Under the pieces are notes generated by a model. It saw only the letters and a list, made by a program, of their open reading frames with translations, did no database searches and was not told the DNA's origin. Source: Pontibacter sp. Tf4 (lineage in GTDB: Bacteria; Bacteroidota; Bacteroidia; Cytophagales; Hymenobacteraceae). From it: a stretch of DNA of 64,000 nucleotides. Numbering within the stretch: the stretch's first letter is position 1; the number at the start of each line of letters is the position of its first letter. Below are positions 1 through 64,000 of the stretch, one piece after another. A program made the translations under genes and the position numbers. Location: the NCBI RefSeq assembly GCF_014212495.1, contig NZ_JACKZC010000002.1:310001-374000 (forward strand), given 5' to 3'.

Positions 1-1391
1 CCGACCTGGATGTGTTCCAGTTCAACAACATTCTTTACAACAAAATTGGCAGCCCGACAGATAGTATTTACAAGCTCAATGCTTTTATCAATGCCATACC
101 ATCCAAACGCTTCCAGGAAACTACAGAACTGGGCTTAAACTATACCGAGCGTACACCCGGGCCATTCTCCAGTATCCGGCTGCGCATGCGCAACGTGTTT
201 GGCGGTGCCGAAAACCTTGATCTGGGTGTTCGTGCCGGTTTTGAAGGACAGATCAGTTTAACGGAACAAAGCGAAACGGTAATGATAAAGGAATTTGGGG
301 GCGACCTGGCCCTCACCTTCCCTACCATTATGGTTCCGGGTGGCGGTAACCTGCTGACCAAGTATAGTCCACGCACCCGTATTTATACTGGCTTTACCAA
401 CGTAGACCGCCAGGAATATAAGCGCTCCAACTACGAGCTTTCCCTGGATTATATCTGGCAGAAATCACGCACGCCATTACAGCCCCCTGTGTTGCAGTAC
501 ATCTTTTCGCCGGTTAACTTAAACATTGTACAGGTCGATACTATTTCAGAGGATTTCAAGCGAAACCTGGAACGCTATAGTCAGGGCAGCCGCTCCCTTA
601 TCGAGAGTTTTAACAGTGCGTTTATCTCCTCCATGTCTTTTAATCTGATCTACAATACCAACGACTTTACGCAGTCGCGCAACGCCCGCTATTTCAGGGG
701 CCTGGTAGAAGTTGGTGGCCTGTCGCAGGAATTGGGGCTGAATGTATCCATTAACAACCTGAATACCTACCAGTTCGTCCGCTTTAACCCCGACTACAGG
801 CGCTACATACCGCTGGGCAACAAGCAGTTCTTTGTGTATAGGGTAAATACTGGTATTGCTGCTCCTATCTTTCAATCGCAGATCCTGCCTTACGATAAAT
901 ACTTTTTTGCCGGTGGTGCATCCAGTGTGCGCGCCTGGCAATCGCGCCGCCTGGGGCCCGGTTCTTTTGCACAACTACAGGAAGTGACCGATGAGAACGG
1001 AGAAACCATACTGGTGCGTGATTTTGAAGCCGAACAGCCTGGTAGCGTGTTGCTGGAGCTAAGTACAGAATACAGGTTCAATATCTTCAGTTTCCTGAAT
1101 GGGGCCTTTTTTGTAGATGCCGGTAACGTATGGACACTGGAACAGGATGCAGCCCGACCGGGTGCCTCGTTTGAGATGAATAATTTTTACAAGGAGTTGG
1201 CAGTAGGTACCGGCTTTGGCCTTCGCTTTGACCTGACGGTATTGGTACTGCGCTTCGATTTTGCTACCAAGGTGTATGATCCGGGTGGCATCAACGGCAA
1301 AAAGTTCGTCCTCGGCGATTTCCGTTTCTCCGAGTTCTTTACCGGCAGTAACCAGAATAACCTGAATATTGGGATCGGCTATCCATTCTAA
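1..1391 (+). CDS. BamA/TamA (Omp85) family outer-membrane barrel protein, 5' truncated
   Basis: The reading frame is open from the window edge, so the gene starts upstream; the first in-window start-like codon (GTG at 12) is not a credible start. About 460 residues of C-terminal barrel are visible, rich in alternating aromatic strands and ending in NLNIGIGYPF, a terminal beta-strand with aromatic last residue as expected of a Bam-assembled protein. The segment GGASSVRAW near visible residue 303 matches the VRG(F/Y)-type loop-6 motif of Omp85 proteins. In Bacteroidetes such proteins are usually TamL or BamA-like and insert or translocate outer-membrane proteins. The POTRA domains, which would decide between TamL and BamA, lie outside the window. 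Family is confident; exact role is inferred. Confidence 0.85.
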   Translation, partial: DLDVFQFNNILYNKIGSPTDSIYKLNAFINAIPSKRFQETTELGLNYTERTPGPFSSIRLRMRNVFGGAENLDLGVRAGFEGQISLTEQSETVMIKEFGGDLALTFPTIMVPGGGNLLTKYSPRTRIYTGFTNVDRQEYKRSNYELSLDYIWQKSRTPLQPPVLQYIFSPVNLNIVQVDTISEDFKRNLERYSQGSRSLIESFNSAFISSMSFNLIYNTNDFTQSRNARYFRGLVEVGGLSQELGLNVSINNLNTYQFVRFNPDYRRYIPLGNKQFFVYRVNTGIAAPIFQSQILPYDKYFFAGGASSVRAWQSRRLGPGSFAQLQEVTDENGETILVRDFEAEQPGSVLLELSTEYRFNIFSFLNGAFFVDAGNVWTLEQDAARPGASFEMNNFYKELAVGTGFGLRFDLTVLVLRFDFATKVYDPGGINGKKFVLGDFRFSEFFTGSNQNNLNIGIGYPF

Positions 1392-1628
1392 GACCAGTGA
1401 TTTCAGAGATTCTTCTGATTTTTATGATTTTCTTTGAATAGCGATTGAAGGCTTTTTTAGATTTCCAGGGCTTGGAGCGTTCTTGGCAGTTCAACTTAAC
1501 CACAAAGGTCACTAAGGTTGCACAATGTTCGCAGAGGCGTAATCAATCTCAAATTTATAACACTACTCGCATTTCAGGGCATCATAAGAATCAGGGCCAC
1601 AAATCATTGGTAGATATTGGGCCAAAGA

Positions 1629-1656
1629 AAAGCCCCGCTATAGTTAGCAGGGCTTT
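1629..1656 (-). terminator. Terminator of the E1 dehydrogenase gene
   Basis: AAAGCCCCGCTA and TAGCAGGGCTTT form a 12-bp stem with one mismatch around a TAGT loop, 25 bp beyond the stop of the minus-strand E1 gene and followed on that strand by a T-rich run. A CTATAGTT motif lies in the loop side. The rest of 1392-1680 holds no convincing gene. Confidence 0.7.
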
Positions 1657-1680
1657 CGGTTTTATAGTTTGCAAACTGTT

Positions 1681-3759
1681 TTAGTAGTTCAACAGTTCTT
1701 TTATAGTTGCAGCTACTTTATCCGGGTTCGGCAACATCATTTTCTCAAGCTCCACATTCAGCGGTATGGCAGGCAGGTTGGCAGCACCTAAGGTATAAAC
1801 CGGCGCATCCAGCTGTTGGAAACAAACTTTTGAGATACGACCCGCCAATGATTCGGCAAAGGAGTTCATCAGAGGCTCTTCTGTCAGCACCAATGCTTTG
1901 CCATGCCGTTTTACCGAAGCCACTACCGCATCAAAATCCAGCGGATTCAGTGTGCGCAGGTCTAAGATCTCTACGCTGCCCGGGAATTGCTTGGAAGCAG
2001 TTTTGGCCCAGTAAACGCCCATGCCGTAGGTAATAACGGTCATGCTGTTGCCCATGCTGATCTCTTCGTCCGATGCATGCTGCACCACATTAGCTTTGCC
2101 CAGCGGCAGGATATAGTTTTCGTCAGGCTCTATAGTTTTGGCATCTTCGGTACCGGCCACTTTAGACCAGTACAGGCCTTTGTGCTCCAGCATGATCACC
2201 GGGTTTGGGTCCAGGAAAGCTGCTTTCATCAAACCTTTCATGTCGGCTGCGTTGCTTGGATATACCACTTTTATGCCGCGTATCGTCAGCAGTGTAGACT
2301 CCACACTACCAGAATGGTACGGACCTCCGCCACCATAAGCGCCGATCGGCACGCGTATAACAGACTGTACCGGAAATTTGCCCATCGACAGGTAACAGCT
2401 TTTAGACAGTTCTTCCACCAGTTGGTTCATGCCGGGCCAGATATAGTCCGCAAACTGGATCTCAACTATAGCCTTCGCTCCTACTGCCGACATCCCTGCC
2501 GTAGAGCCAACAATGTAAGCTTCCTGAATCGGAGTATTGAACACACGGGCATCGCCATACTTTTTAGCCAGCAAAGCCGCTTCGCGGAACACGCCACCCA
2601 GTTCACCGCCCACATCCTGGCCATAGAACAAGGCTTCCGGATAGGTTTTCAGGATGTCATCTACCGCATGCAGGGCTGCATCCACCATAATGGCTTTCTC
2701 AGCGCCGGCTGGTGCACGTTCGCCTTTTTCTTCGGTTACCGGGGTTGGTGCAAACTCATGCTGATCGAATGTGCTTGGGTCAGGAACGGGGGCGTCTAAC
2801 GCTTTCTGATAATCTGCAGCAACTATAGCCTGTGCTTCCTGCTCTAAACTATAGATTTCATCTTCCGTCACATCCAGACTTAGCAATGTCTGCTTCAATC
2901 TCGGGATCGGGTCGTTTACAGAATGCTCCTGCAGGTTATCACCACGATACCACTCGCGACGAACGCCCGAAGTATGGTGGCCCAGCAACGGCACTTTAGC
3001 GTGTACCAGTATCGGCTTACGCACTTCGCGGGCATATTCAAAGGCAATGCGCATGCCCTCAAACGACTCGGCAAAATCAGAACCGTTTACGCGCAGGCGC
3101 TCCATGCCTTTAAAACCGGCGGCATATTCATACGCATCCATGGCCCGCATTTCCTTACCCGTAGCCGAAATGCCCCAGTCATTATCCTGCACCAGGTAAA
3201 CGATTGGTAAACCTTTCAGTACTGCCATCTGGAACGCTTCGGCTACTTCACCTTCCGTAACAGAACCATCGCCCAACGAGCAAAGCACAACCGGCCGTTC
3301 CTCGCTGTTCAAGAGCCCTTGCCCTTCCAGGTATGCAATGCCATGTGCCATGCCGGTTGCCGGAATTGCCTGCATACCTGTAGCTGAGCTTTGATGTGGT
3401 ATAACCGGAAATCCTTCACGCTTTAGAGATGGGTGGCCATAGTAGGTACGACCGCCGGAGAACGGGTCATCCGCTTTCGCCATCAGTTGCAGCATCAGCT
3501 CATAAGGCTGCATGCCAATGCCCAGCAACATCGAATCATCGCGGTAATAGAGCGACGCGTAATCGTAAGGCTTTAACTGAAAAGCTGCTGCCAGTTGTAT
3601 GGCTTCGTGCCCGCGGGAGGTACTATGCACATATTTACTGCAAATGGCTTTGTTCTCTTCGTAAGTATCTGCCATGGTTTTGGCAGTAAGCATTAATCGG
3701 TAGGCTTTCTTCAGGATAGCGACATCCACCCTGAAGTCTTCCAAAGTATCTTTAGACAT
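1681..3759 (-). CDS. Fused alpha/beta E1 subunit of a 2-oxoacid dehydrogenase (thiamine diphosphate-dependent)
   Basis: This 692-residue protein joins both E1 subunits. Residues about 15-315 form the E1-alpha half with the ThDP-binding motif GDGSVTEGEV (from residue 163) closing at QDNDWGIS. Residues about 350-530 are the transketolase-like pyrimidine-binding domain (YGQDVGGELGGVFR), and the rest is the transketolase C-terminal domain. The enzyme decarboxylates a 2-oxoacid and passes the acyl group to an E2 lipoyl domain. The fusion and the 'SSATGMQAIPATGMA' type segment resemble Bacteroidetes branched-chain 2-oxoisovalerate dehydrogenase E1, but substrate cannot be fixed from sequence and no E2 or E3 gene is adjacent. 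Start ATG sits in the AAACTATG context. Confidence 0.9.
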   Translation of the reverse strand: MSKDTLEDFRVDVAILKKAYRLMLTAKTMADTYEENKAICSKYVHSTSRGHEAIQLAAAFQLKPYDYASLYYRDDSMLLGIGMQPYELMLQLMAKADDPFSGGRTYYGHPSLKREGFPVIPHQSSATGMQAIPATGMAHGIAYLEGQGLLNSEERPVVLCSLGDGSVTEGEVAEAFQMAVLKGLPIVYLVQDNDWGISATGKEMRAMDAYEYAAGFKGMERLRVNGSDFAESFEGMRIAFEYAREVRKPILVHAKVPLLGHHTSGVRREWYRGDNLQEHSVNDPIPRLKQTLLSLDVTEDEIYSLEQEAQAIVAADYQKALDAPVPDPSTFDQHEFAPTPVTEEKGERAPAGAEKAIMVDAALHAVDDILKTYPEALFYGQDVGGELGGVFREAALLAKKYGDARVFNTPIQEAYIVGSTAGMSAVGAKAIVEIQFADYIWPGMNQLVEELSKSCYLSMGKFPVQSVIRVPIGAYGGGGPYHSGSVESTLLTIRGIKVVYPSNAADMKGLMKAAFLDPNPVIMLEHKGLYWSKVAGTEDAKTIEPDENYILPLGKANVVQHASDEEISMGNSMTVITYGMGVYWAKTASKQFPGSVEILDLRTLNPLDFDAVVASVKRHGKALVLTEEPLMNSFAESLAGRISKVCFQQLDAPVYTLGAANLPAIPLNVELEKMMLPNPDKVAATIKELLNY

Positions 3760-3848
3760 AGTTTTAGCTTAGTTCTTGCCCGAAGATACTAAAATGAAAC
3801 CTGTTTCTAAAATCTATAGTTTGGCTCGGCAGTACCGGCATATTTAAG

Positions 3849-3856
3849 TACTTTTG
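3849..3856 (+). promoter_or_regulatory. Candidate -7 box upstream of hemF
   Basis: TACTTTTG matches the Bacteroidetes TAnnTTTG element. An upstream TTTG at 3820-3823 is about 25 bp away, longer than the usual spacing near 19, so the assignment is weak. It would give a leader of about 120 nt before the hemF start. Confidence 0.3.
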
Positions 3857-3980
3857 CACAACTTATTGAGACGCTAGATCATAGATTTTAGACAATAGAC
3901 TTAAAATGATCAATTCATTGTTTAGGCTATACTTGTTTAGTTTCTATAATCTAACTTCTAATATCTAACTTCTATAAAAT

Positions 3981-4880
3981 ATGTTCAGAAACGAAGTAGA
4001 AGCCTTTATGCGCCAGTTTCAGCTGGATTTGGTACAGGCCCTGGAAGAATGTGATGGTGGTACCCAATTTCAGAAAGATGAATGGCAGCACGCCGAGCAT
4101 GGCGGCGGTATTACGCGCATTATAGAACATGGTGCTGTGCTGGAAAAAGGCGGCGTAAACTTCTCGGCTGTTGGCGGCCAACTATCGCCTCAGTTTCTGA
4201 AAGCCCTGGAGATGCCGGACCCGAACTTTTTTGCAACAGGTGTGTCGGTGGTGATGCATCCTAAAAGCCCGATGGTTCCGATCTCACACATGAACGTGCG
4301 CTACTTCGAAGCCGGAGACGGCAAAGCCTGGTTTGGTGGTGGCATCGACCTGACGCCTATTTATTTGGATCTGAAACAGGCAAAGGAGTTTCATGAGCAG
4401 ATGAAAGCCGTTTGCGACAAGCACCATCCCAGCTATTACCCGGAGTTTAAAAAGTGGGCCGATGACTATTTCTTTAATGTGCATCGCAACGAAACCCGCG
4501 GCGTAGGCGGTATTTTCTTCGACAGGTTAATGGCTACCGATGAATTTACGTTGCAGCAGCGTTTTGAATTTGTAAAGGATGTTGCCTATGCTTTTGCCCC
4601 TTTCTATACAAGCATCATCAACCAGAACCGCGATTTGCCTTACGGGGAAGAGCAGAAAAAATGGCAACTGATTCGTCGTGGCCGCTACGTGGAGTTTAAC
4701 CTGGTGTACGACCGTGGTACCAAGTTTGGTTTGATGACAGGCGGCCGTATTGAATCTATTCTGATGAGTTTGCCGGAACTGGCCTCATGGGTATATAACC
4801 ATAAACCGGAACCGGGCAGCCCTGAAGAGCAGACACTGAACTACCTTAAGAAAGACATCGACTGGCTAAACGTAGTATAA
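3981..4880 (+). CDS. hemF: Oxygen-dependent coproporphyrinogen III oxidase
   Basis: HemF oxidatively decarboxylates coproporphyrinogen III to protoporphyrinogen IX in haem synthesis, using O2. At 299 residues the protein has normal length and carries the family landmarks: GGGITRIIEHGAVLEKGGVN near residue 41, the substrate-proximal His in PISHMNVRYFE (His103), the WFGGGIDLTP block, and the C-terminal RRGRYVEFNLVYDRGTKFGL followed by GGRIESILMSLP. The ATG at 3981 follows an A/T-rich leader of short quasi-repeats (TCTAACTTCTAATATCTAACTTCT). The next gene begins 4 bp after the stop, so the two are probably co-transcribed. Presence of HemF implies aerobic haem synthesis. Confidence 0.97.
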   Translation: MFRNEVEAFMRQFQLDLVQALEECDGGTQFQKDEWQHAEHGGGITRIIEHGAVLEKGGVNFSAVGGQLSPQFLKALEMPDPNFFATGVSVVMHPKSPMVPISHMNVRYFEAGDGKAWFGGGIDLTPIYLDLKQAKEFHEQMKAVCDKHHPSYYPEFKKWADDYFFNVHRNETRGVGGIFFDRLMATDEFTLQQRFEFVKDVAYAFAPFYTSIINQNRDLPYGEEQKKWQLIRRGRYVEFNLVYDRGTKFGLMTGGRIESILMSLPELASWVYNHKPEPGSPEEQTLNYLKKDIDWLNVV

Positions 4881-4883
4881 GCA

Positions 4884-5465: not shown

Positions 5466-5618
5466 TGGGATTTTGCTGATCTATAGGATTTCTGAACAAT
5501 ACATTGATGTGCATTTTATTGATTAACGCTATTTAGAAAAGCGTTTTTACGATTCAATCCCATCAATCCTTAAATCCTGTAAATCCTTGGGGTAGGGGCT
5601 CTATTTAAAGATTCAGAC

Positions 5619-5658: not shown

Positions 5659-5672
5659 AAACTATAGTTTTG

Positions 5673-11271: not shown

Positions 11272-13908
11272 CTAATTATTCATTAAAGATTTTACAAGTT
11301 CTACTGCTTTGCCTGGCACAGCCTGTAAGCCTGAGGCATCTTTACCACCGGCAGTTGCATAGAACGGCTGGCCGCCGCCACCGCCTTTGATTTCTTTGGC
11401 AAGTTCGCGTACCATCTGACTGGCATTCAGGTTCTTTTCTGTAACTAGGTTATCAGAAAGCATCACCGCGATCTGTGGTTTGCCGTCTATTTCAGCAGCT
11501 AGTACCAGTATAAGGTTGTCTACAACCTGGCGCATATCAAATGCCAGCTTTTTTAGGTGGTCGGCGTTACTTACTTCTACTTGTTCGGCTACCAGGCTTA
11601 CGCCGTTTAGTTGCTGTGCTTTCTGAGCCAAGGTATCTTTCAGGCCGCTTAATTGCTTCAGTTCGAATTGCTCCAGTTGCTTCTGCAGCGCTTTGTTGTC
11701 GTCCTGTAGTTTCTGCACCGCACCCGATACATTACTTTGCGTATTCAGCACTTCACGTACGGCATGTAACTCATCTAACTGGGCCTGTACAAAGTCTTCA
11801 GCAATTTTAGCTGTTACGGCTTCAATACGACGCACACCGGCTGCTACCGAGCTTTCAGATACGATCTTAAAATAACCGATCTCGCCGGTATTGTACACGT
11901 GTGTACCACCGCAAAGCTCTACCGAATGTTCACGGTCGAAAGCGATCACACGTACAAACTCGCCATACTTCTCACCGAACAGGGCGGTTGCTCCCATTTC
12001 CTTAGCTTCGGCGATTGGCACGTTACGCTGCTCTTCCAATGGTATACTCTGGCGCACGCGCTCGTTCACGATGTGCTCTATCTCTCTTAACTCAGCATCT
12101 TCTACTTTAGAGAAATGCGAGAAGTCGAAACGCAGTACTTTTTCATTTACCAGTGAGCCTTTCTGCTGCACATGCTCACCTAAAACTTTACGTAAAGCGG
12201 CATGCAGTAAGTGTGTAGCAGAGTGGTTCTTACGAATATAGTTACGGCGCTCAAAATCGATCTCGCTACGGAAAGCTGCTTCGATGTTTTGCGGCAACTT
12301 AGAAGTTATATGAAGTATAAGATCGTTCTCTTTTTTGGTGTCCAGTACTTCAATTTGCTCCGAATCAGAAACCAGATATCCGGTATCGCCCACTTGTCCA
12401 CCACTCTCCGCATAGAAAGGAGTTCTGTCGAGCACGATGTGATATTCGCTCTTGTTCTTGGTCTTTACCTGGCGGTAACGCACGATGTGTGAGTCCGAAA
12501 CATTGCAGTCGTAACCCACAAACTCGGTCGTTACGTCCGGCTGAACTATAACCCAGTCGCTTTGCTCCGAAGCTGATGCGTTACGCGAACGGTTCTTCTG
12601 CTGCTCCATCTCCACGCCAAAACCAGCTTCGTCCACTGTCAAACCTTTTTCACGGGCAATCAGTGCGGTCAGGTCCAGTGGGAAACCGAAGGTATCGTAT
12701 AGTTCGAAGGCAGTTTTGCCGTCGATGGTATTATCGTTCTCTTTGAATTTAGACTCCAGCGCATCCAGTCTTTTCAGACCATTCTCTAATGTTCTTAAGA
12801 AAGCATTTTCTTCTTCTTCGATCACGCGTTGCACAAAGCTCAGCTGCTGCTTTAGTTCCGGGAAAACAGATTCCAGCTGGTCGGCTAGCACGGCTGCCAG
12901 TTTGTACAGGAACGGTTTTTTGAAATCAAGGAAAGTGAAACCATAACGCACTGCACGACGCAGGATACGACGGATTACATAACCAGCCTTGTTGTTAGAA
13001 GGAAGCTGTCCGTCGGCTATAGTAAAGGCAATAGCACGGATGTGATCAGAAATTACACGGATGGCAATATCTGTCTTCTCATTTTCGCCATAAACTACAC
13101 CGGCTTCTTTGGCCACAAACTGGATCAGCGGCTGGAAAACATCGGTATCATAGTTGGAACGCTTGCCCTGGATAGCCATGCACAAACGCTCGAAGCCCAT
13201 GCCGGTATCTACGTGCTGTGCAGGCAGTTTTACCAGCGAGCCATCGGCCAGGCGGTTAAACTCCATGAATACGTTGTTCCAGATTTCAACTACCTGCGGG
13301 TGATCGGCATTCACAAGAGTTTTGCCATCCACCTGCGCACGCTCTTCATCGGTACGTAAGTCCACGTGTATCTCAGAGCAAGGACCGCACGGACCGGTAT
13401 CGCCCATCTCCCAGAAGTTGTCCTTTTTGTTACCCATCAGGATACGGTCTTCTGCGATCATGGTCTTCCAGATGTCGTAGGCATCCTGGTCCATAGGCAG
13501 ATTCTCAGATGCATCACCCTGGAAAACGGAAACGTACAGCCTGTCTTTTGGCAATTTGTAAACTTCGGTAAGCAGTTCCCACGACCATTCCAGCGCTTCT
13601 TTTTTAAAGTAATCGCCAAACGACCAGTTGCCGAGCATTTCGAACATGGTGTGGTGGTAGGTGTCGTATCCTACCTCTTCCAGGTCGTTGTGTTTACCGC
13701 TCACGCGAAGGCATTTCTGGGTGTCGGCGATGCGCTTATAAGGCGCAGGCTTGTTGCCCAAAAAGTAGTCTTTAAAGGGAGCCATGCCCGAGTTAATAAA
13801 CATCAGGGTTGGGTCATCTTTAACCACGATCGGAGCCGAAGGCACGATCTGGTGCTGCTTGGAAGCGAAGAAATCCAGGAACTTTTGTCTTATCTCAGCT
13901 GAGTTCAT
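11272..13908 (-). CDS. alaS: Alanyl-tRNA synthetase
   Basis: An 878-residue class II synthetase. Visible landmarks are the N-terminal MNSAEIRQKFLDFFASKQH, motif 1-like region FINSGMAPFKDYFLG, GDTGPCGPCSEIH, the tRNA-recognition GYVIRRILRRAVRYG, the editing-domain zinc site HSATHLLH with CGGTHV, and a C-terminal DHHA1-type domain with the glycine run GGGGGQP. It charges tRNA(Ala) and edits mischarged Ser/Gly. Full length is normal. It faces a divergent MerR gene across a 200-bp spacer. Confidence 0.98.
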   Translation of the reverse strand: MNSAEIRQKFLDFFASKQHQIVPSAPIVVKDDPTLMFINSGMAPFKDYFLGNKPAPYKRIADTQKCLRVSGKHNDLEEVGYDTYHHTMFEMLGNWSFGDYFKKEALEWSWELLTEVYKLPKDRLYVSVFQGDASENLPMDQDAYDIWKTMIAEDRILMGNKKDNFWEMGDTGPCGPCSEIHVDLRTDEERAQVDGKTLVNADHPQVVEIWNNVFMEFNRLADGSLVKLPAQHVDTGMGFERLCMAIQGKRSNYDTDVFQPLIQFVAKEAGVVYGENEKTDIAIRVISDHIRAIAFTIADGQLPSNNKAGYVIRRILRRAVRYGFTFLDFKKPFLYKLAAVLADQLESVFPELKQQLSFVQRVIEEEENAFLRTLENGLKRLDALESKFKENDNTIDGKTAFELYDTFGFPLDLTALIAREKGLTVDEAGFGVEMEQQKNRSRNASASEQSDWVIVQPDVTTEFVGYDCNVSDSHIVRYRQVKTKNKSEYHIVLDRTPFYAESGGQVGDTGYLVSDSEQIEVLDTKKENDLILHITSKLPQNIEAAFRSEIDFERRNYIRKNHSATHLLHAALRKVLGEHVQQKGSLVNEKVLRFDFSHFSKVEDAELREIEHIVNERVRQSIPLEEQRNVPIAEAKEMGATALFGEKYGEFVRVIAFDREHSVELCGGTHVYNTGEIGYFKIVSESSVAAGVRRIEAVTAKIAEDFVQAQLDELHAVREVLNTQSNVSGAVQKLQDDNKALQKQLEQFELKQLSGLKDTLAQKAQQLNGVSLVAEQVEVSNADHLKKLAFDMRQVVDNLILVLAAEIDGKPQIAVMLSDNLVTEKNLNASQMVRELAKEIKGGGGGQPFYATAGGKDASGLQAVPGKAVELVKSLMNN

Positions 13909-14480: not shown

Positions 14481-15602
14481 ATGGGAGATAACCAGAACCT
14501 CTACGAAGTTGCCATTACCCAGATTCCCGGTATCGGGCCACAGCTGACACGCCAACTGGTAAGTTACTGTGGCTCTCCGCATGGGGTGTTTCATGCACCT
14601 CCCGGGAAGCTGCAGAAAATTCCGGGTGTAGGTCCGGTGGCTTATAAAAATCTTACACAAGGTGCAAAACAGGCCTTGCTGCAGGCCGAAGAACTGCTTA
14701 AGAAAGCGGAAGAGCACGACGTGCATTTACTGTTCTATACTTCTCCCCAATACCCCGACCGGCTGAAACAAATTGCCGATGCTCCTACCCTTTTATACTT
14801 CCGGGGCAATGGCAACCTCAACCAGCGGCGCATTATTTCTATAGTTGGCACGCGGCAGGTCAGCAACTATGGGCAGGCCGTTACAGAGAAGATTGTAGCT
14901 GATCTGGCTCCGTATAATGTGCTTGTAGTTAGCGGACTGGCGTATGGGGTTGATATTATTGCACACAGGGCAGCATTGCAGGCAGGTTTGTCAACTATAG
15001 GCGTAATGGCCAGCGGCCCCGAAATAGTTTACCCGGCCGTGCACCGTAAATATGCTGAGCGCATGCTGACCCAGGGCGGCTTACTGACAGAGAACATCTT
15101 CGGCACCAAACCCGATGCCCCACGTTTCCCTGCACGAAACCGCATTATTGCCGGCATGAGCGACTGTACTATAGTTGTGGAAGCTACTATAAAAAGCGGC
15201 ACACTCATCACTGCTGACCTGGCACATGGCTACGACAAAGAAGTAATGGCCGTACCCGGTAATGTGACATCCTCGGTCTCAGAGGGGCCAAATCATCTCA
15301 TCAAAAACCATAAAGCCGCTATTTATACCTCGGTGCAGGATCTGGTGGAACTGTTGAACTGGGATTTAGAAGATGAAGCTGCGGCAAAGAAGCAAAAGTC
15401 ACTCACTTTCTCCCCTGACGATTATTCACAAGAAGAACTGAAGGTGCTGAACCTGCTGGTACAAACCCAGGACGAACACATGGATAACATCAGCTGGAAA
15501 ACCCAAATACCGGTGAGTTTGCTGGCATCGGTGCTGTTGACGCTGGAGTTTAAAGGCATGGTGAAAGCTATGCCGGGCAAGCGATTTGGATTGATTCGGT
15601 GA
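14481..15602 (+). CDS. dprA: DNA-processing protein DprA
   Basis: DprA loads RecA on incoming single-stranded DNA during natural transformation. The 373-residue protein has an N-terminal helix-hairpin-helix (ITQIPGIGPQLTRQLV, IPGVGPVAYKNL), the Rossmann core (about 75-285) with SIVGTRQVSNYGQ, VSGLAYGVDIIAHRAAL, FPARNRIIAGMSD and KSGTLITADLA, and a C-terminal winged-helix region (about 310-373). The start ATG is in TAACTATG. No other competence gene is in the window. Confidence 0.95.
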   Translation: MGDNQNLYEVAITQIPGIGPQLTRQLVSYCGSPHGVFHAPPGKLQKIPGVGPVAYKNLTQGAKQALLQAEELLKKAEEHDVHLLFYTSPQYPDRLKQIADAPTLLYFRGNGNLNQRRIISIVGTRQVSNYGQAVTEKIVADLAPYNVLVVSGLAYGVDIIAHRAALQAGLSTIGVMASGPEIVYPAVHRKYAERMLTQGGLLTENIFGTKPDAPRFPARNRIIAGMSDCTIVVEATIKSGTLITADLAHGYDKEVMAVPGNVTSSVSEGPNHLIKNHKAAIYTSVQDLVELLNWDLEDEAAAKKQKSLTFSPDDYSQEELKVLNLLVQTQDEHMDNISWKTQIPVSLLASVLLTLEFKGMVKAMPGKRFGLIR

Positions 15603-23115: not shown

Positions 23116-25050
23116 ATGAGAGATATTTTTGAAGAACTGCTGCAGGTACAACACCTGCTGAAAATTGAACAGGAAGAAGACCGCGAACAGTATAAACTTA
23201 AGAGCCTGAAAAGCACCATACAGGAGCGCAAGGAAATGGGCTTTTGCTGGTATCCGGTAACTATAGTTAAAGAAGAGATCGGTTTCGGGAACAAGGTAGT
23301 TATAGAAGTGGAACGCACCTCGGGCCGCGACGACCTGCACCTGTTTCAGACGGGAAAGGCGGCAGCCCTATTCAGCAATTCCGGCGAACGACAAAATTTA
23401 AGTGGTGTTATAGTTGGCCTGAAGCGCAACAAAATACAGCTGGCTACCAACAAAGAGGACCTGCCGGAATGGGTGGATGGTGGTAAGCTGGGCATCGACC
23501 TGACCTTTGATGAGATGAGCTACCGCGAGATGGAGATCGCCATGAAGAAGGTGCTCGAAGCGTACAAATCAAGGTTAGCCGAGCTGCGCGATATTTTGCT
23601 GGGCATCAAAGAGCCCACCTTTACCGATGTGCAGGTAGACGAGATTCCGGTACTGAACGACTCCCAGAACGAAGCGGTACGCAAGGTAGCACAAGCCAGG
23701 GATGTCGCCATCATTCACGGCCCTCCCGGCACTGGTAAAACCACCACATTGGTGCAGGCTATACTACATACTTTAAAAACCCAGAAGCGCCTGCTGGTAA
23801 CGGCTCCCTCCAACACTGCGGTAGACCTGCTTACCGAAAAGCTGGCCAACGAAGGTGTAAACGTAATCCGTATCGGTAATCCGTCGCGCGTGTCGGATGT
23901 ATTGCTGGAGCATACCCTGGATGCGCAGATCATGGACCACAAGGCCTACAAAGACCTGAAAACGGTGCGAAAAACGGCAGAAGAATACAAGCGCATGGCC
24001 TTCCAGTACAAGCGTAAGTTTGGCCACGAAGAGCGTCTGCAGCGCCAGATGTACAAAGCCGAAAGCAACCGCCTGCTGGACGAAGCTGATAACATAGAAC
24101 ATTACATTACCGAAGACCTGCTGGAAAATGTGCAGGTAATTACGTGTACGCTGGTAGGCGCAGCCAACAAAGCCATCCGCCACCTCACCTACGACACTGT
24201 TTTTATAGACGAAGCTGCCCAGGCGCTGGAACCGGCTTGCTGGGTTCCTATTTCCAGAGCAAACAAAGTTGTGCTTGCCGGCGACCATTGTCAGTTGCCA
24301 CCTACGGTTAAGTCCTTTTTTGCAGAGCAGAAAGGATTAGGTAAAACTTTGTTCGAGAAGTGCATCGAACGCCAGCCCAACGTATCGGTGATGTTGAAAA
24401 CGCAGTACCGCATGCACCACCACATCATGCAATTCTCGAACGAGCAGTTCTACAACGGTGAATTAATGGCCCACGAAAGCGTACACAGCAGCGACCTGCA
24501 TGGCTATGACACGTTCTTTAAACCCGGCTTGGCCGTAGAGTTTGTTGATACCGCCGGATGTGGCTATAACGAAGTAGTGAACCCCGAAGCGCAAAGCTCG
24601 GCCAACCCCGAAGAGGCGGACCTGTTGCTGAACCACCTGCAGGCGCTGCTAAAAGATTACGAACAGGACGAAGAAGTGGCGCCGCTGCGCATTGGGGTAA
24701 TAGCGCCTTACCGTGCCCAGATCAATTACCTGCAGGACAAAGTAGAGCACATGCCACTCTTGCACGAACTATACCAGAAACGCGAGCTTTCGATTGGTAC
24801 GGTGGATAGTTTCCAAGGCCAGGAGCGCGACATAATCTACATCAGTATGGTGCGCAGCAACGAGACCGGCGAAATAGGTTTTTTGAGCGATATACGCCGC
24901 ATGAACGTGGGCATGACCCGCGCCAAAAAGAAACTGGTTATAGTTGGCGACAGCGCTACACTATCGCATCATCCGTTCTACGAGGCGTTTCTGAAGTATA
25001 CCGAGCGTATAAACGCTTACCGCAGCGCCTGGGAACTGACCGAACTATAA
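23116..25050 (+). CDS. Superfamily 1 helicase, SMUBP2/UPF1-like
   Basis: A 644-residue SF1B helicase of the IGHMBP2 type. The N-terminal region (about 1-170) forms the OB-like beta-barrel domain; motif I is GPPGTGKT (202-209), motif II is DEAAQALEPA, motif III contains GDHCQLPPTVKS, motif IV/V is GTVDSFQGQERDIIYISMVRSN and motif VI GMTRAKKKL. Bacterial members unwind RNA or DNA; the specific role is unsettled. The stop codon TAA is again read from AACTATAA. Upstream there is a hairpin very near the start. Confidence 0.9.
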   Translation: MRDIFEELLQVQHLLKIEQEEDREQYKLKSLKSTIQERKEMGFCWYPVTIVKEEIGFGNKVVIEVERTSGRDDLHLFQTGKAAALFSNSGERQNLSGVIVGLKRNKIQLATNKEDLPEWVDGGKLGIDLTFDEMSYREMEIAMKKVLEAYKSRLAELRDILLGIKEPTFTDVQVDEIPVLNDSQNEAVRKVAQARDVAIIHGPPGTGKTTTLVQAILHTLKTQKRLLVTAPSNTAVDLLTEKLANEGVNVIRIGNPSRVSDVLLEHTLDAQIMDHKAYKDLKTVRKTAEEYKRMAFQYKRKFGHEERLQRQMYKAESNRLLDEADNIEHYITEDLLENVQVITCTLVGAANKAIRHLTYDTVFIDEAAQALEPACWVPISRANKVVLAGDHCQLPPTVKSFFAEQKGLGKTLFEKCIERQPNVSVMLKTQYRMHHHIMQFSNEQFYNGELMAHESVHSSDLHGYDTFFKPGLAVEFVDTAGCGYNEVVNPEAQSSANPEEADLLLNHLQALLKDYEQDEEVAPLRIGVIAPYRAQINYLQDKVEHMPLLHELYQKRELSIGTVDSFQGQERDIIYISMVRSNETGEIGFLSDIRRMNVGMTRAKKKLVIVGDSATLSHHPFYEAFLKYTERINAYRSAWELTEL

Positions 25051-58433: not shown

Positions 58434-59873
58434 ATGAAGCCAATACTTGATCTTGATTTTATAGATAACCGCACGCCTGAACAGGCTGCTGCCACGCCAT
58501 CCTGCGACACCCATATTACCAAAGACTCTAACACGGGCCGCGCCCGCAAACTATACATCGAAAGCTACGGCTGCGCCATGAACTTCTCGGATAGCGAGAT
58601 CGTGTCTTCGATCATGTTTGAGCAGGGTTTTGATACGACAGCAGACATTGCGCAGGCAGACCTGGTGTTTCTGAACACCTGCTCTATCCGCGAAAAGGCG
58701 GAACAGACCGTGCGTAACCGTTTAGGTCAGATCAATTATCATAAAAAGCGCAAGCCGGGCATGGTGATCGGTATTCTTGGCTGCATGGCTGAGCGCCTGA
58801 AGAAATCGTTGCTGGAAGAAGAAAAGATCGTTGACCTGGTGGTGGGCCCGGATGCATACCGCGACCTGCCGAACCTGATCAGTGAAGTAGACGGCGGCCA
58901 GAAAGCCGTGAACGTGCTGCTCTCCCGCGAAGAAACCTATGCCGACATCAACCCGATCCGTCTGAACAGTAACGGTGTGAGTGCCTTTATCTCGATCATG
59001 CGTGGTTGCGATAATATGTGCTCTTTCTGCGTGGTGCCGTTTACCCGCGGCCGTGAGCGCTCCAGAGATGCCCATTCCATAGTTAGGGAAGCAAAGGCTT
59101 TGGTGGAGCAGGGCTATAAAGAAGTAACACTGCTTGGCCAGAACGTAGACTCTTACAAGTGGGCCTCCGAAGATGGAACAGAAAGCGTGAATTTTGCACA
59201 GTTGCTGGAAATGGTGGCTTTGCTGTCACCGGACCTGCGTGTGCGCTTCTCCACCTCGCATCCGAAAGACATTACAGATGAAGTGCTTTATACCATGAAA
59301 AAGTACGACAACATCTGCAAATACATACACCTGCCTGCCCAGAGCGGTAACTCGCGCGTGCTGGAACTGATGAACCGCACCTATGACCGTGAGTGGTACA
59401 TTAACCGCGTAGATGCCATTCGTGCTATATTGGGCGAAGATTGCGGTATTTCTTCTGATATGATCGCCGGTTTCTGCACCGAAACCGAAGAAGAGCACCA
59501 GGATACGCTAAGCCTGATGGATTATGTGCAGTACGACTACTCCTATATGTTCTTTTACTCCGAGCGCCCTGGTACGCTGGCAGCCCGCAAACTGGAAGAT
59601 GACATCCCGCTGGAAGTGAAGAAACGTCGCCTGGACGAGATCATTAACAAGCAGCGCGAAACATCCCTGGCCCGCAACAAACGCGACATCGGCAAAGTGC
59701 ACAAAGTACTGGTAGAAGGTCCTTCCAAGAAATCAGAAGAGCAGCTGAGCGGCCGCAACGACCAGAACAAAGTGGTGATCTTCGACAAAAAACACTACAA
59801 AAAAGGCGATTACGTGAACGTGCTGGTAACAGACTGCAGCGTAGGCACCCTGTTCGGCGAAGCGGTGGATTAG
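58434..59873 (+). CDS. miaB: tRNA i6A37 methylthiotransferase
   Basis: Radical-SAM enzyme that methylthiolates i6A37 to ms2i6A37 in tRNA. The 479-residue protein has [14 protein letters not shown] (N-terminal Cys), [27 protein letters not shown], the radical-SAM cluster [20 protein letters not shown], and a TRAM domain at the C-terminus ([24 protein letters not shown]). The downstream hydroxylase MiaE is at 49.1 kb and the related MtaB at 43.2 kb, so this window encodes two 37-position methylthiotransferases. Confidence 0.97.
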
Positions 59874-59946
59874 ATTTGGAAATTTGAAGATGAGAAAATT
59901 TGAAAATTATCTTTTAAAGCATCTTCAAATCTCCACATTTCCAAAT
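59874..59946. repeat. A/T-rich inverted repeat in the sigma-54 activator leader
   Basis: ATTTGAAGATG (59882-59892) and CATCTTCAAAT (59920-59930) are perfectly complementary, with outer ATTTGG and CCAAAT arms. It spans nearly all of the miaB to 59962 spacer. Confidence 0.6.
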
Positions 59947-59961
59947 CTTCAAATTTAAAAC

Positions 59962-61245
59962 ATGCGCAACATCGATATTCAAAGTATAAAACAGCGGTTT
60001 GGCATTATCGGCAACTCGCCGCAGCTAAACTATGCCATACAGGTAGCGGTGCAGGTTGCCCCTACCGACATGACCGTGCTCATAACCGGTGAAAGCGGTA
60101 GTGGTAAAGAATCCTTTTCCAAGATCATTCATCAGCTGAGCCCGCGCAAACATGGCCAGTTTATAGCTATTAACTGCGGTGCAATACCCGAAGGAACGAT
60201 AGATTCTGAGCTATTTGGTCACGAAAAAGGCTCGTTTACCGGCGCCCACGACACCCGAAAAGGTTATTTTGAAGTAACCGATGGCGGTACTATTTTCCTG
60301 GATGAGATCGGTGAAATGCCGCTGGGTACGCAAGCCCGCCTGCTGCGCGTGCTTGAGAACGGTGAGTTTATTAAAGTAGGTTCGTCAAAGGTACAGAAAA
60401 CCGATGTGCGCGTGGTAGCTGCTACCAACGTAAACCTGCTGAATGCGGTAGAGAAAGGCCGCTTTAGAGAAGACTTATACTATAGATTAAATACCGTTCC
60501 GATCACGGTTCCGCCTCTGCGTGAGCGTGGCGATGATGTATATTTGCTGTTCCGTAAATTTGCCAGCGATTTTGCCGAAAAATACCGCGTTAAATCTATT
60601 ACCCTAATGCCGGATGCCATTCCGGTGCTGCTGGATTTCCGCTGGCCGGGCAACATCCGTCAGTTAAAGAATATTGTGGAGCAGATATCTGTGCTGGAAT
60701 ATGAGCGGGAAATAGATGCCGAGACCTTGAAGCGCTACCTGCCACGCGAGCAGGCCAGCCATGTACCGGCGCTCCTTAACGCTGAAAAGTCATCAGATCA
60801 AAGCTTCTCGGAACGCGACATCCTGTATAAGGTATTGTTTGATATGCGCCGCGACGTGTCGGATCTGAAGAAGCTGGTTTTTGAGATGCTGACACACCAG
60901 CCCGCTGAAACAGACCTGCTGAAAGAACATGGCCATTTGTTTGAGAATATCGGGCACTACGATACGCCACATTTCGGTAACCGTCCGTTTCAGACGCAGG
61001 AGCAGCACGATGCGTTTTACCTGCCCATGAAACAGGCTCAGCCACACGAGTACGACGATCAAAAAATAGAAGACATTCAGCACGAAAATGCCGAAGAAAG
61101 TCTATCTTTAGAAGATAAGGAAAAAGAACTGATCGTGAAAGCGCTGAAGAAACATAACAACAAGCGCAAATACGCCGCCCAGGACCTCGGAATCTCGGAA
61201 CGAACGCTGTACAGAAAACTGAAACAGTATGAAATTGAAGAATAA
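59962..61245 (+). CDS. Sigma-54-dependent transcriptional activator without receiver domain
   Basis: A 427-residue AAA+ activator. Walker A is GESGSGKES (near residue 43), the sigma-54-contacting GAFTGA motif reads GSFTGA in HEKGSFTGAHD, Walker B is GGTIFLDEIGEM, and the sensor region has VRVVAATN and RWPGNIRQLKNIVE. The C-terminus ends in a Fis-type HTH (NKRKYAAQDLGISERTLYRKLKQYE). There is no N-terminal receiver or sensor domain, so activity must be controlled by level or a separate partner. The Gly-Ser variant is a common one. lptE overlaps its 3' end by 17 bp. Confidence 0.93.
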   Translation: MRNIDIQSIKQRFGIIGNSPQLNYAIQVAVQVAPTDMTVLITGESGSGKESFSKIIHQLSPRKHGQFIAINCGAIPEGTIDSELFGHEKGSFTGAHDTRKGYFEVTDGGTIFLDEIGEMPLGTQARLLRVLENGEFIKVGSSKVQKTDVRVVAATNVNLLNAVEKGRFREDLYYRLNTVPITVPPLRERGDDVYLLFRKFASDFAEKYRVKSITLMPDAIPVLLDFRWPGNIRQLKNIVEQISVLEYEREIDAETLKRYLPREQASHVPALLNAEKSSDQSFSERDILYKVLFDMRRDVSDLKKLVFEMLTHQPAETDLLKEHGHLFENIGHYDTPHFGNRPFQTQEQHDAFYLPMKQAQPHEYDDQKIEDIQHENAEESLSLEDKEKELIVKALKKHNNKRKYAAQDLGISERTLYRKLKQYEIEE

Positions 61246-61759
61246 GCCGCTTAAAATCTATAGTTTACCCCTGTTCCTGCTGACGCTGCTCTGCAGTGGC
61301 TGTGGCGTTTATTCGTTTACCGGTACCACCATTTCCCCGGATATCAAAACTATTTCGATCCAGAACTTTGAGAACCCGACCGGTGAGGGCCCGGCCAACC
61401 TGACACAGCTTGTTACCAATAACTTTAAGAACTACTACCGCCGCAATACCAACCTTACCCTGCAACAGCAGGAAGGCGACCTGCAGATTGAAGGCCAGAT
61501 CGTGAGCTTTACGGTTACACCGGCTGCCATACAGCGCGATGGCGAAATAGACCGTGCCACCCTGAACAGATTGACCTTAGGCGTGCAGGTGCGTTTTACC
61601 AACACCGTGAACCCGGATGAAAGCTTCGACCAGCTATTTTCTATCTCGCAGGATTTTGCAGAAGACCGCGACGTAACGCAATTGACCCCTGCCGAAATAG
61701 AAAACATGACAGAGCAACTGGTAACGCAGGTATTTAACAGAACAGTAGCCAACTGGTAA
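61229..61759 (+). CDS. lptE: LPS-assembly lipoprotein LptE
   Basis: A 176-residue lipoprotein with lipobox near LCSGC in MKLKNKPLKIYSLPLFLLTLLCSGC, then GVYSFTGTTISPDIKTISIQNFENPT, a beta-rich LptE/RlpB fold and a C-terminal helix with TEQLVTQVFNRTVANW. It would plug LptD in the outer membrane for LPS insertion. It starts inside the end of the activator gene (17-bp overlap), so the two are translationally coupled. The TIV-repeat gene begins 30 bp after the stop. Confidence 0.88.
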   Translation: MKLKNKPLKIYSLPLFLLTLLCSGCGVYSFTGTTISPDIKTISIQNFENPTGEGPANLTQLVTNNFKNYYRRNTNLTLQQQEGDLQIEGQIVSFTVTPAAIQRDGEIDRATLNRLTLGVQVRFTNTVNPDESFDQLFSISQDFAEDRDVTQLTPAEIENMTEQLVTQVFNRTVANW

Positions 61760-61788
61760 CCATACATAACAAAGTACAGCATACCCTA

Positions 61789-63150
61789 ATGAACAGATCA
61801 GCTTTTCTTGAACTGATACAGAAGGCTTCGGGCATTACAGACCAGCAGACAGCAGAGTTGGAAAAGGTAGCAAGTGCCTTTCCCTACTGCCAGACCGCGC
61901 ACCTGCTGCTCGCCAAATCTGCCTATGATAAGGGAAGTATGCTCTCTACGCAGCGCCTGCGCCGTGCGGCCTCCTATGCCACCGATCGGCAGTTACTAAA
62001 GCGCATTATTTACACATCGCCGGTTACAGCCCCTGCTTTTGATGAAACAGCTGTAGCCACGCAGCCAACTATAGTTACAGAGACTACAGCACCGCTTACC
62101 ACACAGCCAACTATAGCTGAACCTGAAACTATAGAAAGTGAAGCGCAACCTATAGTTGCAGACACTGATGAAACTATAGTTGAACAAACACAGGCTATAG
62201 TTGGAGATGCAGAAGAAACTATAGTTGAGGAAAGTGTTGAGGAGCAAACTATAGTTGCTCCGGCTGACACTATAGAGGAAACTATAGTTGCGGAAGAAGA
62301 GATAGAAACACTGGCAGAGGAAGTATATGCTGGTTTTGAAACAGAACAGTCTTTCTCAGAACCGGAAGCTACCCTGCCATCGACTGACATGGTGGAACTG
62401 GCCGACCTGCTGAGCATCAGTAGCCTAAGCACCACTTTTACTGACCTGCTGGCGCAACAGCCCGACCTCGAAGCAGCCGATGAAAACTATAGCATTGAGC
62501 ACAACCAGCACCTGCAAGACACAGAAGAAGCCCTTTATGAGCTGAATACTGATCCAGAGGAGGAATCTATAGTTGAACAAGAGACCATTACTGCAGAGGT
62601 TCCGGTCGCTATAGTTGAAGAAGAACCCGCAACTATAGTTACCGATATGCACCCTGAGGACGCAGAAGTAACTTACAATTTCAGTGAGATAGACCGGATG
62701 TATGCGGAAGATGCACTGGGTTACTGGATGGGCTCCAGCCGTATGGGCGAAGTGCTGCAGCTGAAAAATGACTATACACGGCCAAAACCTTTCGCGTTCC
62801 ACCCGGAAATGATCCTGGAGTATAACAAGACACACGAACTGGAAAAAGCCATTCAGCCTGCAACCAACATCCTGAGTGAGCAGCTGGACATTATAGACCA
62901 GTTCCTGAAACTGAACCCGCGCCTGAAAACCATGGCCAACCTGAAGCTGAAAGCGGAACCGCAGGAAGACCTTTCACTTAAAAGCTCCAAGATCAAGAAA
63001 GGAATGGCCTCCGAAAATCTGGCAAATATCTTTTTAAAACAGGGCAAAGTTAAAAAGGCCATTAAAATATATGAGCTGCTCATTTTGAAAAATCCGGAAA
63101 AAAAGAGTTACTTTGCCGAACAGATAGAAAAATTACAAAACCTAAACTAA
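61789..63150 (+). CDS. TIV-repeat acidic protein with helical ends
   Basis: A 453-residue protein of unknown function. Residues 1-75 form a helical N-terminal domain (MNRSAFLELIQKASGITDQQTAELEKVASAFPYCQTAHLLLAK), residues about 80-290 are an acidic low-complexity linker rich in Glu, Thr, Ile and Val with repeated TIVE, TIVA and TIAE words, and residues about 380-453 include a TPR-like helix pair (ENLANIFLKQGKVKKAIKIYELLILKNPEKK). The TIV words are encoded by ACT-ATA-GTT, the centre of the AACTATAGTT palindrome. The gene probably belongs to the lptE-secG transcript. Confidence 0.8.
   Translation: MNRSAFLELIQKASGITDQQTAELEKVASAFPYCQTAHLLLAKSAYDKGSMLSTQRLRRAASYATDRQLLKRIIYTSPVTAPAFDETAVATQPTIVTETTAPLTTQPTIAEPETIESEAQPIVADTDETIVEQTQAIVGDAEETIVEESVEEQTIVAPADTIEETIVAEEEIETLAEEVYAGFETEQSFSEPEATLPSTDMVELADLLSISSLSTTFTDLLAQQPDLEAADENYSIEHNQHLQDTEEALYELNTDPEEESIVEQETITAEVPVAIVEEEPATIVTDMHPEDAEVTYNFSEIDRMYAEDALGYWMGSSRMGEVLQLKNDYTRPKPFAFHPEMILEYNKTHELEKAIQPATNILSEQLDIIDQFLKLNPRLKTMANLKLKAEPQEDLSLKSSKIKKGMASENLANIFLKQGKVKKAIKIYELLILKNPEKKSYFAEQIEKLQNLN
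62067..62640. repeat. Cluster of 14 CTATAG motifs in the TIV-repeat gene
   Basis: Six full AACTATAGTT copies start at 62067, 62172, 62217, 62247, 62280 and 62631. Eight more CTATAG cores start at 62111, 62129, 62150, 62195, 62270, 62487, 62567 and 62609. Most are in one reading frame, giving Thr-Ile-Val. Spacings are irregular, so this is not a tandem repeat. Confidence 0.95.
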
Positions 63151-63151
63151 G

Positions 63152-63538
63152 ATGTACATCGCCCTTATCAGTATTATCGTTTTCATTTGCGTGTTGCTAA
63201 TCCTGGTTGTGCTTGCACAAAACCCTAAAGGAGGCGGACTTTCCAGCCAGTTCGGAGGCAGCACCAGCCAGCTAATGGGTGTAAAACGTACTGGTGACCT
63301 TCTGGAGAAATTGACCTGGGGTTTTGCCATTGCATTAGTTGTTCTGACGCTTGGTACACACATGATGCTGAACTCAGCCAACAACTCATCAACAGGTACA
63401 AGCATTAACGAAGAGCGTGCACGCCAGTCGGCATTGCCGGGTGCTCCTGCCGCCGCGCCAGCTGCTGCTGATACAATTACTGCTATCCCTGATGCTGGTG
63501 ATATTCCGGCTATGATCGATACAGCTAACAACCAATAA
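63152..63538 (+). CDS. secG: Preprotein translocase subunit SecG
   Basis: A 128-residue SecG: ALISIIVFICVLLILVVLAQNPKGGGLSSQFGGS is the family signature, followed by the second membrane helix (GFAIALVVLTLGTHMML). It assists SecYE in protein export. The Bacteroidetes C-terminal extension is Ala/Asp-rich and unstructured. It begins 1 bp after the TIV-repeat gene stop. Confidence 0.95.
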   Translation: MYIALISIIVFICVLLILVVLAQNPKGGGLSSQFGGSTSQLMGVKRTGDLLEKLTWGFAIALVVLTLGTHMMLNSANNSSTGTSINEERARQSALPGAPAAAPAAADTITAIPDAGDIPAMIDTANNQ

Positions 63539-63564
63539 GCAAAACACAAACATACTATAACAAG

Positions 63565-63592
63565 AAGCCAGCCTGTAACAGGTTGGCTTTTT
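63565..63592 (+). terminator. Terminator of secG
   Basis: AAGCCAGCCTG and CAGGTTGGCTT form an 11-bp stem (one wobble) with a 3-nt loop and a T-run. Confidence 0.85.
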
Positions 63593-63801
63593 TGTTTGCT
63601 ACCTCTGCCATTCCTGTCCTGCTGTTCACCACAAAAGTTCCCTTATCTGGCAGAAAATGACAAAATTGTCAGGCTTGGCAGTGGCCGAGGCTGCAAAATT
63701 GGCTTAAACTATCGCTAAAACCGGCTTGGCACAGGAAATGATAAGTACTTGTCGGTTCAAATTTCATTTTTAACCATAAAACCTAATAACAATAACAAAC
63801 T

Positions 63802-64000
63802 ATGTCAATCAGCATTAAACCATTAGCAGACAGAGTAATTGTAGCTCCTGCTGCAGCAGAAGAAAAAACGAAGTCTGGTATCATCATTCCGGACACTGCT
63901 AAAGAAAAACCACAGCGTGGCGAGGTAGTAGCCGTTGGCGAAGGCAAAGTGTCTGAGCAAGGTACCTTAATGCAGCCACAGGTTAAAGTTGGCGACCAGG
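63802..64000 (+). CDS. groES: Co-chaperonin GroES, 3' truncated
   Basis: The first 66 codons of Gro[52 protein letters not shown]; the mobile loop is the [10 protein letters not shown] region. The gene runs past the window edge and would be followed by groEL. The start ATG is in AAACTATG. The 200-bp leader upstream shows no CIRCE-type inverted repeat that I can recognise. Confidence 0.97.

Follow-up and report, generated by a model that had tools for sequence, protein, structure and literature searches.

A one-way word with lineage-specific dialects is iterated through Pontibacter genomes and resembles a DNA uptake-like self tag

A stretch of 64,000 nucleotides from one contig of the Pontibacter sp. 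Tf4 genome (NZ_JACKZC010000002.1, positions 310,001 to 374,000; referred to here in its entirety as the window) carries a short A/T-rich sequence at very high copy number, which raises the question of what the repeated unit is and what process writes it into the chromosome. The first-pass annotation read it as a highly iterated palindrome (HIP) with the core CTATAG and the full form AACTATAGTT, likened its scale to that of cyanobacterial HIP1, and listed a protein-binding or methylation site, a mobile-repeat product and a replication or segregation mark as possible roles. Its counts by eye were correct: the window contains 124 copies of CTATAG (17.1 expected from base composition) and 22 of AACTATAGTT (0.08 expected), found on both strands, within genes and in spacers. 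The 4.45-Mb genome of the window (G000) holds 1477 copies of AACTATAGTT and 4 of the reversed control, showing that the 10-mer is not confined to the window. The results below indicate that the enriched unit is a one-way word, TATAGTT, that it exists in several dialects across the genus, and that a role in DNA uptake, which was absent from the earlier list, fits best.

The iterated unit is a one-way word

The strongest long word in the window is TATAGTT, seven bases that read in one direction. It occurs at 200 sites on the two strands, where a second-order Markov model predicts 8.8, and the reversed word shows no enrichment (8 copies). The base on its 5' side is C in 122 cases, T in 50, G in 19 and A in 9, and it is because C so often precedes the word that the palindromic hexamer CTATAG is favored in this dialect. 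In the genome of the window, the octamer CTATAGTT occurs 4160 and 4048 times on the two strands, approximately 1800 per Mb, against 65 and 95 for the reversed control. With 7 bases at 31 sites per 10 kb, the word occupies about 2% of the chromosome.

The palindrome was rejected as the unit on the basis of this one-way excess and of the behavior of its two arms. Given its sub-words, AACTATAGTT is as frequent in the window as a maximal-order model predicts (22 observed, 21.94 expected). Among 534 CTATAG cores from five genomes that use TATAGTT, 272 have AA on the left and 286 have TT on the right, and both arms occur together in 119, below the 145.7 expected under independence. The arms thus avoid each other, most 10-mers are two one-way words overlapping on TATA, and a single TATAGTT arm suffices. 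What stands of the likeness to HIP1 is its scale, as the iteration is genome-wide and its abundance lies inside the 1000 to 2000 copies per Mb given for HIPs in the excerpted text of PMC4390886. The palindrome itself does not stand, and it leaves uncovered the one-way, non-palindromic words TATACTT and TATACCT that other species carry.

Dialects of the word follow the phylogeny of the genus

A survey of 50 Pontibacter genomes, with 20 to 64 kb searched in each (14.8 kb in G037 and 5.6 kb in G025), retrieved an enriched word in 41, which are termed positive. This word is TATAGTT in 5 genomes, TATACTT in 21 and TATACCT in 13, and 2 genomes have two words at once. The three dialects share TATA and the final T, and their preferred flanks vary (GCTATACCTG, TTTATACTT and CTATAGTT). 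Enrichment is weak in one of the positive genomes, G041 (17 copies, 3.0 expected). None of the three words is prominent in the remaining nine genomes, termed negative (G008, G014, G028, G030, G034, G036, G037, G038 and G047). The comparison with related genomes called for by the first-pass annotation thus finds the word to be frequent in close relatives and dialects of it in most of the genus. The 10-mer AACTATAGTT is frequent in G000 (1477) and in its six closest relatives by alaS, namely G009 (1300), G029 (1164), G018 (1124), G015 (1087), G045 (330) and G013 (232); next comes G049, with 104, and the other 42 genomes have 0 to 28. Among the negative genomes, G036 contains 35 copies of TATATAT in 20 kb where 8.3 are expected, which may be a local repeat or another dialect.

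The two mixed genomes carry TATACTT and TATAGTT at near-equal densities (22.0 and 16.8 per 10 kb in G013, 21.2 and 18.8 in G045). A less balanced mixture is present in G015, which was counted as a TATAGTT genome and has 12.0 TATACTT beside 31.3 TATAGTT per 10 kb.

The alaS gene of the window shares 86 to 87% identity with its counterparts in Pontibacter silvestris and P. pamirensis, which assigns the genome to this genus, and it served to place the dialects on a tree. In this protein tree, which joins 3 outgroups to the 50 genomes, is built from a single gene and is weakly supported at 20 of 50 inner branches, the TATACCT genomes apart from G041 make up a single clade of 12. The TATAGTT genomes fall inside one clade of 7 together with both mixed genomes, and TATACTT is spread across the remainder. 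The distribution takes 8 changes on the tree, against a mean of 25.3 and a minimum of 20 in 300 shuffles. Dialects therefore follow phylogeny.

The degenerate word YTATACYT was counted across the order in 390 genomes, including 19 from Pontibacter. It is strong in 15 of the 19 and shows no excess in G008 and G036. In G000, it is moderate (993 and 1074 against 232 and 227), and the weak excess in the negative genome G028 (1113 and 1076 against 418 and 418) is perhaps a decaying relic. Among the matches listed for the 371 genomes from outside Pontibacter, none exceeds the reversed word by more than about twofold. The octamer CTATAGTT likewise shows no enrichment in 154 genomes from five other genera of the family.

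Sites occupy permissive positions on both strands

Sites are spread evenly over the window, with 21 to 32 per 8 kb. Their spacing shows slight clustering (coefficient of variation of 1.17, compared to 0.99 with a standard deviation of 0.07 for random placement), and no clear period was detected in it. Neighbors within 80 bases point in the same direction in 233 cases and are opposed in 82 and 68, an excess that perhaps comes from one gene with a repetitive linker, described below. The strand counts are near 1:1 (105 and 95 in the window; 96 and 90, 95 and 92, 102 and 93, and 96 and 92 in four relatives; 49 and 52 and 51 and 62 in the mixed genomes), as counted in one orthologous region of 60 to 64 kb in each of the seven genomes. 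This balance lends no support to the proposed replication or segregation mark.

The location of the sites is that of a word placed where it is tolerated. In the five TATAGTT genomes, the density per 10 kb is 24.1 in genes (open frames of at least 100 codons), 55.8 in divergent spacers, 78.5 in tandem spacers and 116.0 in convergent spacers. Convergent spacers are also the densest and genes the sparsest in the 12 of 13 TATACCT and 19 of 21 TATACTT genomes covered by this ranking, from which G041, G017 and G025 were excluded. Sites inside the genes of the window are antisense in 88 cases and sense in 50, and the sense frame that would place TAG as a stop codon is unused.

The densest kilobase of the window, starting at 62051, lies inside the gene for a 453-residue protein with an acidic linker (Table 1). 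The sequence ACTATAGTT translates to T-I-V, and the linker consists of TIV and ETIVE repeats, so that it reads as the word written into a stretch of protein that would tolerate it.

Five regions with methylase genes were taken as a sample of possibly acquired DNA. The bacteriophage exclusion (BREX) region of G000 (contig C17:15001-28000, with PglZ, an Eco57I-type methylase and BrxC identified by Pfam) has 2 sites in 13 kb, or 1.5 per 10 kb. Two further regions are similarly poor, with 4 sites in 12 kb in G015 (3.3 per 10 kb) and none in 14 kb in G039 (0.0). The genome-level densities beside these three are 31 and 21 per 10 kb. Together with the two remaining regions, which are taken up below, they show the scarcity of the word in acquired DNA in part.

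Table 1. Positions of the word and of associated genes in the window
Feature	Position	Strand	Remarks
TATAGTT, 200 copies	1..64000	both (105 +, 95 -)	122 are CTATAGTT; 177 separate places, mean gap 355 bases
AACTATAGTT, first of 22	5660..5669
AACTATAGTT, further starts	7849, 8509, 14088, 19519, 23259, 26553, 28196, 29322, 36284, 41098, 45194, 45484, 49044, 56730, 57033, 62067, 62172, 62217, 62247, 62280, 62631
Longest site-free stretch between neighbors	58549..61265		2.7 kb
Gene for a 453-residue protein	61789..63150	+	acidic low-complexity linker with 19 TATAGTT; one TPR match below the Pfam cut-off; no NCBIfam match
alaS	11272..13908	-	basis of the genus tree
dprA, DNA-processing protein of natural transformation	14481..15602	+	373 codons open
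IGHMBP2-family helicase gene	23116..25050		contains the PF00437 match of G000

Sites are conserved and turn over nearly as wholes

The window aligns with both mixed genomes and with the other four TATAGTT genomes at 78 to 81% identity over 48 to 55 kb. Of its TATAGTT sites, G009 keeps 80 of 145, G029 70 of 138, G018 67 of 147 and G015 58 of 138. These proportions exceed those of flanking 7-mers, of which 18 to 21% are kept, and of 7-mers of the same composition, of which 28 to 31% are kept (525 of 2515 and 202 of 717, respectively, in G009). Genomes of other dialects keep the sites no better than the flanks (0 of 22 in G039, 0 of 24 in G019, 7 of 43 in G049 and 1 of 29 in G033).

Sites that are not intact tend to be several changes away. 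One-mismatch states account for 8 to 21% of sites and 31 to 36% of flanks, and states with at least three mismatches account for 15 to 25% and 18 to 22%. Turnover is therefore close to all-or-none, a pattern that could also come from loss in fast-evolving spacers. Insertions and deletions are found at few aligned sites (15 of 145 in G009 and 9 of 142 in a second count), and most aligned sites differ from their relatives by substitution rather than insertion, which leaves the suggested mobile-repeat product unsupported.

The mixed genome G013 shows how one dialect takes the place of another. At the sites of the window, it keeps 39 of 126 and has TATACTT at 16. Of its own TATACTT sites, 113 align to G029, where 23 are TATACTT, 18 are TATAGTT and every other variant is found at most 5 times. 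The converse is lopsided, with only 1 of 35 TATACTT sites of G029 being TATAGTT in G013. Dialect words thus swap at shared positions, and between G013 and G029 the change runs mostly one way.

A proposed role in DNA uptake is the best fit

Two proteobacterial families are known to use uptake sequences, and in both, including the Pasteurellaceae with their uptake signal sequence (USS), import works via type IV pili. The Pontibacter word resembles a DNA uptake sequence (DUS) in being a one-way word of thousands of copies, with phylogeny-bound dialects around an invariant core, a mixed stage, conservation above that of the flanks, permissive location and apparent scarcity in some acquired DNA. 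From these features, we consider that there is about an even chance that the word serves as a DUS-like self tag. A receptor on the Pontibacter cell surface would bind free DNA at TATAGTT, or at the word of the local dialect, and favor the import of DNA that bears it. The imported DNA would then recombine into the chromosome, where word-bearing alleles would displace word-less ones, and the word would accumulate wherever gene function tolerates it. As the specificity of the receptor drifted, sites would change one by one, taking the lineage by way of a mixed stage to a new dialect, and loss of specificity would let the word decay.

Several observations weigh against this reading. At one site per 320 bases, the word is probably denser than the uptake of kilobase fragments would need. 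Recent single-step gains from ancestors with a single mismatch were not seen (0, with 2.7 expected), among relatives that at about 80% identity are too distant for clean polarity. The reversed word was kept at 7 of 13 positions between G000 and G009 and, when 11 overlapping pairs are pooled, at 35 of 90, rates that are not clearly lower than those of the sites; this control is small, and the larger control of the same composition is clearly lower. The two remaining methylase regions, in G000 and G015, are rich in the word, with 74 sites in 13 kb (56.9 per 10 kb) and 27 in 12 kb (22.5 per 10 kb). Their Eco57I-type methylase genes alone carry 15 and 12 sites, which indicates that they are long resident.

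The genes expected of a transformable cell do not single out the positive genomes. Matches to comEC and dprA were found in all 50 genomes (that to dprA of G025 in partial view), the nine negative ones included, and these core competence genes consequently do not track the word. In G021 and G040, dprA and comEC are both broken while the word persists, as if competence had been lost. The comEC gene of G000, the genome with the highest word count, lies on contig C23 and breaks into two frames around residue 541 of its G009 relative, either as a real feature or through misassembly. The position of dprA inside the window is probably a coincidence.

The route used by the proteobacterial systems was also sought. 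For the type IV pilus motor, PF00437 retrieved nothing beyond fragment matches, the longest covering 66 of the 370 positions, in any of the 50 genomes; the search was of the motor and not of the pilins themselves. Every genome has such a match at an E value of 0.001, and 3 lie slightly above the cut-off. In G000, the match falls in a gene for an IGHMBP2-family helicase (Table 1), and the length of the open frames suggests that the matches in the other genomes are to the same gene. An uptake tag would hence need a different receptor, and for this reason the word is not assigned to the DUS of the known families.

Two candidates for such a receptor were examined and rejected. A DUF5689 protein, as found in Riemerella, is present in 22 of the 50 genomes. 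Its short form (413 to 450 residues) occurs in 12 of the 41 positive and none of the 9 negative genomes, and its long form (1099 to 1299 residues) occurs in both groups, so that DUF5689 is not required. The short gene of G000 follows a gene that looks SusD-like. A choice-of-anchor-J protein is above the cut-off in 31 of the 41 positive genomes and in 1 of the 9 negative ones, with a Fisher P value of 0.0006 that is uncorrected for kinship; a tree-aware test reduces the comparison to 4 independent pairs and has no power. The protein, mostly of about 1000 to 1640 residues, looks like an extracellular nuclease, and 18 of 20 loci share a common neighborhood, that of the negative genome G047 included. 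No candidate passed, given the patchy occurrence of DUF5689 and the nuclease-like character and few independent pairs of choice-of-anchor-J. Nothing receptor-like that tracks the word was seen in the neighborhood of comEC, compared in 12 positive and 8 negative genomes by means of 16 sequences.

Alternative explanations

An abundant intracellular protein that organizes or surveys the chromosome might bind the word, each site being kept by selection and the dialects reflecting changed specificity. Such a binder would account for conservation above that of the flanks, the even spread, the strand balance and the preference for spacers. Against it, selection at individual sites, thousands of them, would need enough strength to have introduced TIV repeats into a protein; nine species do without the word, and all-or-none turnover is not specifically predicted. 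We know of no protein that acts in this way at one site per 320 bases, and the explanation is unlikely.

A HIP-like methylation mark, in which a word recognized by a methylase builds up through regulation or methyl-directed repair, would match the abundance per Mb, which equals the HIP range, and HIPs track methylases in cyanobacteria (PMC4390886, in the parts available). The one-way word is unlike a palindromic site of this kind. The survey of methylases covered the families PF01555 and PF07669. The first is absent from four of the five TATAGTT genomes (G000, G009, G018 and G029) and is found in 27 of the 41 positive and 4 of the 9 negative genomes. The second exceeds its cut-off of 25.3 in 46 of the 50 genomes, at least weakly; the long-resident, site-dense Eco57I-type genes of G000 and G015 also speak for the mark. 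Among the five TATAGTT genomes, G000 and G015 are the only ones to reach an E value below 1e-20. The matches of G009, G018 and G029, at 29 to 42 bits, could be methylases or other enzymes. The methylation role put forward at first is weakened by this distribution and appears rather unlikely.

The word might instead mark recombination hotspots of the Chi type, recognized by AddAB or RecBCD, the dialects following the enzyme. It is a one-way octamer that is over-represented in core DNA and scarce in three of the five methylase regions. This explanation is quite improbable. The lack of strand polarity in the orthologous region of the seven genomes argues against it (compare PMC8022716, seen in excerpt). 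The Chi of Escherichia coli is also far less dense than the Pontibacter word. Finally, a mutation bias, or a mobile element that leaves the word behind, would explain abundance alone and is scarcely credible given the few insertions and deletions at aligned sites, the unenriched reversed word, the lower conservation of words of the same composition and the single-base specificity of the dialects.

A second iterated word in the phylum and its implications

Among 80 named loci, that of Rhabdobacter roseus stood out for the word AAGTACC, with 72 copies in 22.7 kb where 8.4 are expected. In the 6.9-Mb genome of this species, AAGTACCY occurs 6947 and 6675 times on the two strands (13622 in total), against 280 and 278 (558) for the reversed word. 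No such excess is present in six further genomes included in the search, with at most 551 against 214. Another genus of the phylum thus has a one-way iterated word of its own, unrelated to that of Pontibacter. Weaker words were seen in about 20 kb each of Solirubrum puertoriconensis (CCTAGGT, 24 copies, 1.7 expected), Larkinella rosea (CGGTTTT, 64 and 18.3), a Saprospiraceae metagenome-assembled genome (GGTTTAG, 21 and 2.4) and Cognataquiflexum nitidum (TCAGGGC, 18 and 2.7).

Tentatively, and with slightly less than an even chance, Bacteroidota may have evolved uptake-sequence systems of their own, independently of the pilus-borne DUS and USS. The TATA words of Pontibacter would then act via a pilus-free outer membrane receptor, with dialect switching still ongoing in some species, and AAGTACCY of R. 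roseus would be an unrelated word of the same kind. The open-licence literature, in result lists that were partly covered, yielded no report of the word in Pontibacter and no established uptake sequence in Bacteroidota. In a genus with no detected pilus motor, a word with dialects would mean either that uptake specificity has re-evolved with another receptor or that some other process writes about 2% of the chromosome. Genomes with two dialects would represent a switch of specificity in progress, so that its spread over thousands of sites becomes testable, and the word may separate long-resident from newly acquired DNA in Pontibacter.

Comparison with known systems

Chi sequences share with the Pontibacter word a one-way reading, over-representation and lineage specificity, whereas the word is much denser and has no strand polarity. 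HIP1 and the alternative HIPs of cyanobacteria are comparable in copies per Mb and in their lineage-specific replacements (excerpts of PMC4390886), but they are palindromic, mostly GC-rich and tied to methylases; the Pontibacter word is one-way, AT-rich and not clearly tracked by PF01555 or PF07669.

The USS of Pasteurellaceae is, in the source text available, also a one-way word with hundreds to thousands of genomic copies. Its sequence is unrelated to that of the Pontibacter word, a putative uptake tag. Within the phylum, Bacteroidota can be competent even when no pilus genes are detectable. Competence of Riemerella anatipestifer depends on ComEC and DprA, on a member of the ComF family and on surface proteins of unfamiliar kinds (PMC8459023, in part), and R. 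columbina favors its own DNA (PMC7965970, in part). Pontibacter shares the phylum, comEC and dprA with these pilus-free transformers. It differs from them in its word, as the accessible text of PMC7965970 establishes no uptake word for Riemerella and gives A/T-rich runs as the top k-mers.

The closest likeness is to the DUS of Neisseriaceae, even though these belong to another phylum and are longer, with 10 to 12 bases compared to the 7 to 8 of the Pontibacter word, and the 50 Pontibacter genomes, with no convincing pilus motor, give no sign of a ComP-type route. According to the portions of PMC3630211 and PMC2397512 available, DUS are short words present in thousands of copies, with dialects congruent with phylogeny and an invariant core; they are conserved, permissively located with many copies in spacers, and rare in acquired DNA. 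The Simonsiella genome holds two DUS dialects (PMC3630211, in excerpt), as the mixed Pontibacter genomes hold two words, and the DUS of Neisseria show a similar pattern of turnover that has been read as birth by recombination (PMC2397512, in excerpt).

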